Source: Methanosarcina sp. KYL-1
Lineage (GTDB): Archaea; Halobacteriota; Methanosarcinia; Methanosarcinales; Methanosarcinaceae
DNA length: 64,000 nucleotides
NCBI RefSeq assembly: GCF_024372725.1
Contig: NZ_VOUA01000004.1
Span: 124,001-188,000 of the forward strand
Direction of reading: 5' to 3'
Translations under genes and position numbers: made by a program
Shown: positions 30,831 to 50,965 of the stretch, piece by piece
Layout: each line of letters starts with the position of its first letter
Numbering within the stretch: the first letter of the stretch is position 1
Notes under the pieces: model-generated
The model's database searches: none
What the model was told of the DNA's origin: nothing
The model's input: the letters and a program-made list of their open reading frames with translations, nothing else

Positions 30831-30900
30831 GATCTCAATCATCAGATCTCAATCATCAGATCTCAATCATCAGATCTCAATCATCAGATCTCAACCATTC
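30831..30900. repeat. 14-bp tandem repeat including the stop codon of the oxidoreductase gene
   Basis: GATCTCAATCATCA is repeated exactly at 30831, 30845, 30859 and 30873, and a fifth diverged unit continues into the coding sequence. On the minus strand the unit reads TGATGATTGAGATC, and the first TGA is the stop codon of the gene ending at 30884. The array therefore seems to have grown from the gene's own 3' end. Confidence 0.9.
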
Positions 30901-31819
30901 TTTCTTCCGTGTAAGACCGGATTGCAGCCATTGCCACTTCCAGGGCGTGCTTACCCTCTTCTCCTGAGGGTTTCGGGCAGGTGCCGTCCCGGGTACAACG
31001 GATGAAATGGGAAAGCTCTTTTTTCAGGGGCTCGGATTTCTCCACCCTGGCTTTCCTGATCCAGCCGTCGTCGTGCAGTTCCACACTCTGTTCCAGGTAG
31101 TCCAGATAAGCCACCCCCTTCAGGCCCACAGCCGTGAGTTGCCGGATTTTATGTGGGGTGAGCCAGTTTGTCTCCACAAGGCCCGAGTATGCATGGTTCA
31201 GGCGCAGGTGGATGCTTGCATGGTCTTCAAATGAATGTATGTCGGAACCGGCCACGGCATAGACCTGGTTTACCTTCATTCCGTAGAGGTAGGAGATGAT
31301 ATCGATGTCGTGCACCCCTATGTCCAGGATTACCCCTACGTCCCTTATTCTGGGGTTATAAGGCCCGACCCTCCGGGCTGAGATGGATACGATTTTGCCC
31401 AGGGCGCCCGAATCGATTATTTCCTTTAGTTTCAGGACTGCGGGGTTGAACCTCTCTATATGCCCAACCATCAGGTGCCTGTCGGTTTCCTCAGCCGATT
31501 CGATCATTGCGGCTGCATTTTCGATGCTGTCGGCAATGGGCTTTTCTACAAGCACGTCAACTCCGGCCCGCAGTGCATCAAGAGCTATCGGATAGTGCAG
31601 GGTGGTGGGGGCTGCAATGCTTACTGCATCGAGCTCAAGTTTTTCAAACATTTTTCTATGGTCTGCAAAAGGTTTTGTTTCATACCTGTCTGCCAGTTCC
31701 CTTGCCCTGGAAACGTTCGGGTCGGAAATCCCGAAAAGTTTTACGTCTTCCATTTCACTGTAAATTCTGACATGGTTCTCCCCCATGTAACCCGTTCCAA
31801 TGACTCCTACGCGTATCAA
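30884..31819 (-). CDS. Gfo/Idh/MocA-family oxidoreductase (WbpB-like)
   Basis: This 311-aa enzyme begins MIRVGVIGTGYMGENHVRIY (NAD-binding GxGxxG) and has the family's E92-K93-P94 triad in VEKPIADS, MVGHIERFNP, and the GVHDIDIISYL segment with the probable catalytic histidine. In bacteria WbpB oxidises C3 of UDP-GlcNAcA in concert with the aminotransferase WbpE, and both genes are adjacent here. The start is a TTG with GGGGGT eight bases upstream. Its stop codon lies inside a tandem repeat. Confidence 0.87.
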   Translation of the reverse strand: MIRVGVIGTGYMGENHVRIYSEMEDVKLFGISDPNVSRARELADRYETKPFADHRKMFEKLELDAVSIAAPTTLHYPIALDALRAGVDVLVEKPIADSIENAAAMIESAEETDRHLMVGHIERFNPAVLKLKEIIDSGALGKIVSISARRVGPYNPRIRDVGVILDIGVHDIDIISYLYGMKVNQVYAVAGSDIHSFEDHASIHLRLNHAYSGLVETNWLTPHKIRQLTAVGLKGVAYLDYLEQSVELHDDGWIRKARVEKSEPLKKELSHFIRCTRDGTCPKPSGEEGKHALEVAMAAIRSYTEERMVEI

Positions 31820-44164: not shown

Positions 44165-44222
44165 TCAATGCTATATTTGTCAATGCTATATTTGTCAATG
44201 CTATATTTGTCAATGCTATAAT
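44165..44222. repeat. 15-bp tandem repeat between convergent genes
   Basis: TCAATGCTATATTTG is repeated exactly three times from 44165, with a fourth partial unit ending at the radical SAM stop region. Confidence 0.88.
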
Positions 44223-44225
44223 TTT

Positions 44226-45365
44226 TCAGTCCGAAAGTTTCAGGTACTTTTCCCTGAATTCCGGGTCCCTCATCAGGCAGGACTTTGCATTATATGCGGT
44301 GTCCCTCCTGATCTTTTTCCATACGTCCTGTATCTTATCTGTATGGACGTTTCCGTAAGGGATGGGGATGCAGGCGCAGGGGAGGATGTTTCCTTCGGGG
44401 GTGATGTGCAGCCATTTCCGGCCTGCCATGCAGCCTGTGGTCCTCATTACCTGGGGGATTGCAAAGACCCTCGGGCCTTCTTTTTCCCTTGCCCTGGCCA
44501 CGAAATCGTCAAATTTTCTCAGGTCTTTGGGGGTCAGGATCTCGGTTGCGTGTTCCATCCACCTGCCCGTGGGCACGATTTCGTAAAAGGAGAGTTCGTG
44601 GACGCCGAGTCCTGCGGCAAGGGCGTAGATTTCGTCAAGCTCGTTTACGTTGTCCCTCGAAAGCACCACGTAGATGTTTACCAGCAGCCCGGCAGCAAGC
44701 CCGTTTTTGACGGCGGATACCGCACTTTTAAAGACCCCTTCCCTGCCCCTCACGTAATCGTGCTTTTCCTCAAAGGCGCTGTCAAAACTGACGGTCAGGG
44801 AGTAGAGCCCGGCAGCTTTGAGGCTCCTGGCCCGCTCTTCGGTCAGCCCGACCCCCGAGGTGAACATGCCGGTGATGGCCTTTTCGGGGTCCACGTACCT
44901 TATAAGGTTTTCCAGGCCGGGATAGGTCAGGGGTTCGCCCCCGTCAAAGATTACAAAGGTCGTGCCCATCTCAAGCACCTGGTCGATTGCGGCTTTCACG
45001 GTTTCGGGGGCAAGTTTCGAGCGGTTTTTCGTGTCCGGAAGGGCGCAGTGAATGCAGTTGTTCGGGCAGTCCTCGGTAATGGAGATCGTAACCTGGTCAG
45101 GGACCATTTTCCCGAACATTGCCAGGAGCTGGCTTCTTACCAGGCGGTCAAAACCCGGCCCCGGGATGGGGGGCATCCAGGTAGAATAGATCAGCCGGCC
45201 GCCCTCCACTTTTGCAGGCTTTTCGCCTTCGAAGATAGAGAAGTTCCCTGAAACGGCTTTTTTCATGAAGGGGGACGCTATCCCCCCGGTCTTCATCCGC
45301 AAGCGCCCGTTTTCTATTTCGGCATAGGCCCTGAAGAGGGGGTTTTTGTAAAAATCGTACTGCAT
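44226..45365 (-). CDS. Radical SAM protein with SPASM-like C-terminus
   Basis: This 379-aa enzyme has the radical SAM cluster motif C100-x3-C104-x2-C107 in EDCPNNCIHCALP, GGEPLTYPGL, and a C-terminal cysteine set (GCMAGRKWLHITPEGNILPC, then C-I-P) as in SPASM/twitch proteins that bind extra clusters. The N-terminal ~90 residues are a separate small domain. The gene is third in a minus-strand run after a UbiA prenyltransferase and a geranylgeranyl-reductase-like gene. The role is probably in modification of a prenylated compound; the substrate is unknown. Confidence 0.88.
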   Translation of the reverse strand: MQYDFYKNPLFRAYAEIENGRLRMKTGGIASPFMKKAVSGNFSIFEGEKPAKVEGGRLIYSTWMPPIPGPGFDRLVRSQLLAMFGKMVPDQVTISITEDCPNNCIHCALPDTKNRSKLAPETVKAAIDQVLEMGTTFVIFDGGEPLTYPGLENLIRYVDPEKAITGMFTSGVGLTEERARSLKAAGLYSLTVSFDSAFEEKHDYVRGREGVFKSAVSAVKNGLAAGLLVNIYVVLSRDNVNELDEIYALAAGLGVHELSFYEIVPTGRWMEHATEILTPKDLRKFDDFVARAREKEGPRVFAIPQVMRTTGCMAGRKWLHITPEGNILPCACIPIPYGNVHTDKIQDVWKKIRRDTAYNAKSCLMRDPEFREKYLKLSD

Positions 45366-49579: not shown

Positions 49580-49987
49580 ATGACTGAAGACCCGAAAAAA
49601 TTGTTATTTGACTTTACGGCCGGACTCGGAGATTTTGCTTCCGAAACCGAAGTTCAGGGAAAGCAGGCTGCAGCGTTTATGGGCATGGTCGGGGCAAGCT
49701 TTGAAACTTCGGTCCTTGACTTCAAAACCAAAGAGCTGATTGCTATCGGCGTTGCTCTCTACCACCGCTGTCCTTACTGCATCTCCCTCCACGCTTTCAA
49801 TGCCCTTGAGGCCGGAGCCACAAAAGAAGAGATCATGCAGGCTTCCATGGTTGCGGTTGCCTTTGGCGGCGGGCCTTCTATGTCCTTTGCAGTGACCCTC
49901 CTGAAGAACGCGGTTGAGACCTTCCAGGGTGAGTCCTTTACAGAAGAAGACCGGATGGAGATCCTCAAAAGGCTTGGAATGGCTTAA
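49580..49987 (+). CDS. Carboxymuconolactone decarboxylase/AhpD-like protein
   Basis: This 135-aa all-helical protein has the AhpD motif HRCPYCISLHAFNALEAGAT (C64, C67, H71), a redox-active CxxC followed by histidine. Such proteins reduce peroxides or act as thiol relays. AGGTGAT sits just before the ATG at 49580; a longer upstream frame is not conserved. Its last codons are part of a 23-bp tandem repeat. Confidence 0.87.
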   Translation: MTEDPKKLLFDFTAGLGDFASETEVQGKQAAAFMGMVGASFETSVLDFKTKELIAIGVALYHRCPYCISLHAFNALEAGATKEEIMQASMVAVAFGGGPSMSFAVTLLKNAVETFQGESFTEEDRMEILKRLGMA

Positions 49988-50072
49988 AATCAGTTTTAAG
50001 GATGGTTTAAATCCCATTTTGAGGATGGCTTAAATCCCATTTTGAGGATGGCTTAAAAACTGTTTTAAAATA
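49981..50072. repeat. 23-bp tandem repeat that includes a stop codon
   Basis: Units at 49981, 50004, 50027 and 50050 are each 23 bases and carry GG(C/T)TTAAA; units two and three differ by one base. The first unit holds the final GCT-TAA of the AhpD-like gene, so the repeat grew from the end of that gene. Confidence 0.88.
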
Positions 50073-50143
50073 GAAATGGACTGCCTCTTTGAGGCTGGGG
50101 CCCATTCACTTTTTATCTTCTTTACTTTTCTGTTTATTCTTTT

Positions 50144-50731
50144 TTAGTCTTCTTTTGCCCGGGGCATGGCAATGATTTCCCTTACCTGCAGGGAGAAAAA
50201 GTCGCCGCTGTGGGCAGGCCTGAGCACAAGGGCCACGTCTGCGCCCCACCGCGTGCCGCCGATTGCAATGATCTCCGTATCCTCGGAAACGGGGATGTGC
50301 CCGGAGTCTGCGGCCATTATGGCAACCTCTATTGCGACCTTAAAGCCCTTCCCGAAGAGGGAACGCAGGGTATCGGAAATCACTTCTATCCGGGAATAGC
50401 CTCCGAACTTTTTGGTAATGGACCTCTCTATTCCGGAAAACATGTGGGACTGGGTTGTGATTACGGCTCCGAGCTCTTCAAGTTTCCGTTTATATTCTTC
50501 TTCCACTTCCCATTCGCCTTTCTCTTTCTGCCCGTACTGATGGCTTATGCCGATTACCTTTATGCCGCTGCCTTTTACCGCCTCTGCCATCTTGAGAGCG
50601 GTTTTTCCGCTGGTGCTTGCGACCACGATGTGGGATATCCCCAGTTCTGCGGCTCTCTTTGCCGATGCTTCCACAACGGCGCAGGTATTTACTTCTCCTA
50701 CATTGTCCAGGTAAAGAATTGGTTTTTCCAT
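50144..50731 (-). CDS. Pyruvate kinase C-terminal-domain-like protein
   Basis: This 195-aa single-domain protein resembles the C-terminal (allosteric) domain of pyruvate kinase as found alone in archaea, with VEASAKRAAELGISHIVVAS, STSGKTALKMAEAV and IIAIGGTRWGADVALVLRPA. It lacks the catalytic barrel, so kinase activity is not expected. GGAGA precedes the ATG. The function is unknown. Confidence 0.85.
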   Translation of the reverse strand: MEKPILYLDNVGEVNTCAVVEASAKRAAELGISHIVVASTSGKTALKMAEAVKGSGIKVIGISHQYGQKEKGEWEVEEEYKRKLEELGAVITTQSHMFSGIERSITKKFGGYSRIEVISDTLRSLFGKGFKVAIEVAIMAADSGHIPVSEDTEIIAIGGTRWGADVALVLRPAHSGDFFSLQVREIIAMPRAKED

Positions 50732-50784: not shown

Positions 50785-50965
50785 CTTTTTTCTTTTTCTT
50801 TTTGCGGTACTCCTCTCTTTTTACCTCTCTTTCCCTTCTTTTTCCTTCCCTTTCCTTTTTCCCCTTTCCTTCCCTTTCCTTTTTCCCCTTTCCTTCTCTT
50901 TCCCCTCTTTTTCCTTCCCTTTCCTTTTTCCCCTTCTCTTTTTCCCCTTCCCTTTTTTCTCCTAT
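50785..50965. repeat. Long polypyrimidine tract (purine leader on the minus strand)
   Basis: The plus strand is almost pure C and T for about 180 bases, with repeated CCCTTTCCTTTTTCCCC-like units. On the minus strand it lies directly upstream of the pyruvate kinase-like gene, as a GGAAAGG-rich leader that offers many ribosome-site-like motifs. Confidence 0.75.

Follow-up and report, generated by a model that had tools for sequence, protein, structure and literature searches.

A 23-bp tandem repeat array on the stop codon of an AhpD-like gene in Methanosarcina sp. KYL-1, apparently formed in place by duplication of the gene's end

Tandem repeats that overlap stop codons have been described in several microbes. 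In Yersinia pestis, 10 variable-number tandem repeats (VNTRs) hold a gene's stop and six lie at starts, and it has been suggested that copy number there might affect the open reading frame (ORF) less (PMC3689786). Stop-overlapping tandem repeats have also been published for the Borg elements, extrachromosomal elements of Methanoperedens, whose repeats are described as of recent origin and specific to each locus (PMC9879509), whilst the TAACTGA direct repeats of the Beggiatoaceae overlap the stop codon in 13 genes, insertions being considered to succeed mainly at the protein periphery (PMC4679880). Methanosarcina was singled out for its satellites, of which 1908 were reported in nine species, units of <30 nt forming the most numerous group, and the birth of satellites was ascribed to DNA replication anomalies; the term 'stop codon' occurs nowhere in the main text of that paper, and position at gene ends is not discussed in its relevant sections (PMC6749651). 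A search limited to the open-access literature found no mention of arrays on stop codons in Methanosarcina. Here, a 64,000-nt stretch of the genome of Methanosarcina sp. KYL-1 (contig NZ_VOUA01000004.1, positions 124,001 to 188,000; referred to as the window) was analysed, in which four 23-bp units lie across the end of a gene of the carboxymuconolactone decarboxylase (CMD, AhpD-like) family. The case is a clean further example of the stop-overlapping tandem repeats already described in other microbes. The gene and the repeat units are arranged as follows.

49580 to 49987, plus strand: CMD/AhpD-like gene, 135 aa, stop TAA at 49985–49987 (Pfam CMD PF02627, E 1.3e-19; ORF and gene call; orthologues with 74–96 % identity)
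49979 to 50001, plus strand: repeat unit 1, Met-Ala-stop (ATG GCT TAA), then 14 bp of 3′ flank
50002 to 50024, plus strand: repeat unit 2
50025 to 50047, plus strand: repeat unit 3, one base different from unit 2
50048 to 50070, plus strand: repeat unit 4, with a junction to the downstream sequence as for the single copy in relatives

A preliminary description of this DNA had reported four 23-base units at 49981–50072, with the stop in the first. This was confirmed, the array being the same in another phase (49979–50070, units starting at 49979, 50002, 50025 and 50048), and the TAA sits within unit 1. Units 1 and 4 were more diverged than units 2 and 3. Tandem Repeats Finder (TRF) gave a period of 23, 3.5 copies, 85 % matches and a score of 111, and in 1000 dinucleotide shuffles of 49941–50110 the score never exceeded 47. 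Shuffles of the whole window (n = 20) yielded three arrays with a score of at least 50 in total and none with a score of at least 80, compared with 28 arrays in the real window. The array is genuine and lies far beyond chance.

The array has the marks of a locally born minisatellite, with head-to-tail copies well above chance and a unit derived from local single-copy sequence. It was absent from all eight relatives that were read. At the gene end of the relative G005, ATGGCTTAAAAACTTTTTTAAAATAA runs into AAATGGAC with a single unit only, and in G005, G026 and G029 one unit (slightly altered in the latter two) stands between a matching gene end and matching downstream sequence, the C-terminus being identical in the single-unit relatives. 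The distance from the ATGG of the unit to AAATGGAC was 26 nt in G005 and 95 nt in the window, a gain of 69 bp, or 3 × 23. Because a single unit is present in the alignable relatives and the gain is exactly 69 bp, the gene end and 14 bp of its 3′ flank appear to have been tandemly duplicated in this lineage, and the comparison of sequences indicates that the array arose in place. The locus shows clearly, for an archaeon, the states before and after the birth of a minisatellite on a stop codon.

The array very probably reflects background formation of minisatellites, which the stop tolerates as the first copy retains frame and stop. The segment running from the last two codons through the stop into the 3′ flank would have undergone three tandem duplications in this lineage, probably through slippage during replication (which we infer only) or unequal recombination, with similar events at many Methanosarcina sites. 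The first copy would keep the frame, the C-terminal residues and the stop intact, giving the same protein at any copy number, and the extra copies would be decaying 3′-flank sequence.

The position of the stop in the first unit also bears on whether the array could act as a contingency (phase-variation) locus and alter the protein's end through its copy number. Like the periods of frameshifting repeats, the period of 23 is not divisible by 3, but any copy number of at least one leaves the same protein, and such a locus is scarcely credible. Phase variation was rejected on the anatomy, with the stop in unit 1 and the array downstream of the gene. The Y. pestis VNTRs likewise have the stop inside the repeat; at the present locus it is in the first unit and the protein is unaffected. 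Whilst those VNTRs are bacterial, were found as markers for strain typing and are known to vary in copy number (PMC3689786), the array described here is archaeal and, with one genome per species compared, array differences in this work are differences between species.

Two further comparisons concern the units themselves. The Borg repeat units are perfect (PMC9879509), whereas the copies in the 23-bp array are 85 % alike, and the Beggiatoaceae have one heptamer dispersed genome-wide (PMC4679880), whereas the units here are specific to each locus. That the layout recurs is the one point in favour of insertion of a mobile or dispersed repeat at the stop; however, the unit corresponds to the end of the gene itself and the units of different loci are mostly unrelated, and an insertion of this kind is very unlikely. 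The unit was found at no other site in the 4.04-Mb genome when searched with up to three mismatches, and a dispersed or mobile element was rejected since this search matched the array only. A 12-mer of the unit was common to another array in 24 of 200 arrays of the same genome with a score of at least 80, the two arrays named in the preliminary description not being among the 24; since so few arrays have common 12-mers, the units appear to originate locally.

The second of these two arrays had been described at 30831, as the same layout in an unrelated gene. This layout is real, and both it and another array in the window hold the stop of a minus-strand gene.

30831 to 30898, minus strand: second array, 14-bp unit × 4.9, holding the stop TGA (30884–30886) of the minus-strand gene 30884–31819
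44165 to 44228, minus strand: array holding the stop of the minus-strand gene 44226–45365; not seen by eye in three relatives whose match reaches the gene end

Neither of the two relatives of full length, L118 and L135, showed the 30831 array by eye; the fragments from L127 (G026), a broken copy, were left out of this comparison. In L127 the relative of gene 30884–31819 matched piecemeal in several frames, as if broken.

Five further stop-arrays of the window's genome were compared with seven relatives each, and no array lay on the stop in 31 of the 35 relative loci. At the four loci with an array the units were of other length (20 bp at three loci, 14 bp at one). The 20-bp stop arrays, in L200, L201 and L203, belong to relatives of the gene at C1:103428–104327 (the C1:104314 gene), which has a 12-bp × 7.3 array in the window's genome; the stop in relatives of this gene lies about 3–4 codons earlier, so that the codon is not identical. 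The 14-bp array was found in one relative of the C1:36298 gene, compared with a 15-bp array in the window's genome. For gene 74567–76309 of contig C1 the relatives aligned only to residues 502–572 of 580, which is uninformative on the ancestral stop; its seven loci are included in the 31 of 35, and without them the array-free count is 24 of 28. Arrays seem to appear and vanish lineage by lineage. Each unit of the 12-bp × 7.3 array reads, in frame, Ile-Ser-Asp-stop.

Arrays were surveyed with TRF (period at least 8, score at least 50) in 864 kb of the window's genome (21 %, including the window) and in 780 kb of seven relatives. Genes were called with a simple hexamer model; these calls are crude, and starts are less certain than stops. 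The window's genome yielded 408 arrays (47 per 100 kb) and the relatives 227 (29 per 100 kb, range 10 to 61), whilst comparison bacterial loci had 60 arrays in 685 kb (8.8 per 100 kb). Among the genomes of the genus that were sampled, array densities differed about sixfold.

The preliminary description had proposed a search for other genes with the stop in a tandem repeat, and had taken the layout as probably reflecting a recurring process, coincidence being the alternative if there were no further cases. Further cases were found: a stop codon lay in 37 of the 408 arrays of the window's genome and a start codon in nine, the corresponding numbers in the relatives being 21 and seven. In a stricter set (genes of at least 200 aa, score at least 100) there were 19 stop-arrays vs four start-arrays. 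Tandem duplications that include the stop recur in this and related genomes.

A placement model was used in which each array was put at random in its own intergenic gap, with intrusion into either neighbour of at most one unit. In the window's genome 37 stops were seen vs 33.4 expected (p 0.23), and the idea of a process aimed at stops gained no support from this count, whereas nine starts were seen vs 24.0 expected, with none of 1000 placements that low. Stops do not look targeted in this genome; what departs from chance is the shortage at starts.

Intrusion into the gene was at most one period in 31 of the 37 stop-arrays of this genome and in 14 of the 21 from the relatives. Array edges in the window's genome reached 30.6 per 10,000 sites at 4–15 nt before the gene end and 30.5–35.7 at 0–49 nt after it; deeper inside the gene they fell to 6.9, then to 0.5, and were gone about one unit further in. 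The period was a multiple of 3 in 17 of the 37 stop-arrays and 100 of 281 intergenic arrays, compared with 72 of 77 arrays inside genes (Fisher p 3e-8, stop-arrays vs inside). Arrays at stops are thus without frame constraint, much like intergenic ones, as expected under neutral tolerance: a duplicated unit that holds the stop leaves the first copy, and hence the protein, intact in any frame. A simple rule follows these data: an array may enter the 3′ end of a gene by about one unit without frame constraint, and is rare across starts.

Several observations weigh against background formation with tolerance at the stop. In the relatives, 21 stops were seen vs 12.7 expected (p 0.014) and the shortage at starts was non-significant (7 vs 9.1, p 0.29). 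Edge density in the window's genome was 30–36 per 10,000 sites in the first 50 nt past the stop vs 17 further out. Intrusion exceeded one unit in six of the 37 stop-arrays of this genome and seven of the 21 in the relatives. At the AhpD-like locus, inspection by eye of the single-copy sequence in the relatives revealed no convincing exact short direct repeat at the borders of the unit.

The excess at stops in the relatives, together with the crowding of array edges in the window's genome between about 15 nt upstream and 50 nt downstream of the stop, argues for tandem duplication being actively favoured at gene 3′ ends (e.g. by transcription end or its collision with replication), with stops truly enriched. 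The near-chance count at stops in the window's genome argues the other way, and the fall with distance is partly built in, since an array must fit its gap; active favouring of 3′ ends is unlikely. There may be a mild preference for 3′ ends, which is seen in the relatives and not in the count for the window's genome. It is equally doubtful that short tandem duplications in Methanosarcina favour gene 3′ ends where transcription ends, making stops a hot spot at which more minisatellites arise than tolerance under selection would account for. A real 3′-end excess on whole genomes, if true, would point to a mutation process tied to transcript ends; as matters stand, the arrays are an ordinary outcome of background duplication and selection.

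The sequence beyond the array holds the following features.

50071 to 50112, no strand assigned: conserved flank 3′ of the array; a weak stem-loop may form here, which the scan did not score as a terminator
50112 to 50153, minus strand: weak 22-bp × 2 array that includes the stop of the convergent PK_C-like gene
50144 to 50731, minus strand: convergent gene with a pyruvate kinase C-terminal-like domain (PK_C; ORF list and domain search)

Units 1 and 3 can fold small AU-rich hairpins (−2.9 and −3.4 kcal/mol) and the array widens the space from the stop to the conserved flank, which would suit a functional element of the 3′ untranslated region (a terminator, or an RNA-processing or stability element). 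However, the fold of 49960–50105 was little beyond its shuffles (z −0.92; 40 of 200 equally good), and the terminator scan of 49900–50200 found no intrinsic terminator (GC-rich stem then T run). The relatives, moreover, do without the extra copies, and the copies have diverged. The best of seven folded sequences were the small hairpin of unit 1 (z −2.25; matched by 8 of 200 shuffles) and the G029 flank (z −1.98; by 7 of 200), and RNA folding of the array and flank gave nothing clearly above chance. Folding, terminator scan and relatives gave no clear indication of a function, and we infer that the array has none; a functional element is a distinctly improbable reading of the locus.

G026 (L129) has its own independent array, about 18 bp × 3, in the spacer between ahpD and the PK_C-like gene, after the stop of the convergent gene; the window is without that unit. 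Upstream of the PK_C-like gene, at 50811–50963 of the window, lies a 150-bp pyrimidine-rich tract with overlapping short repeats.
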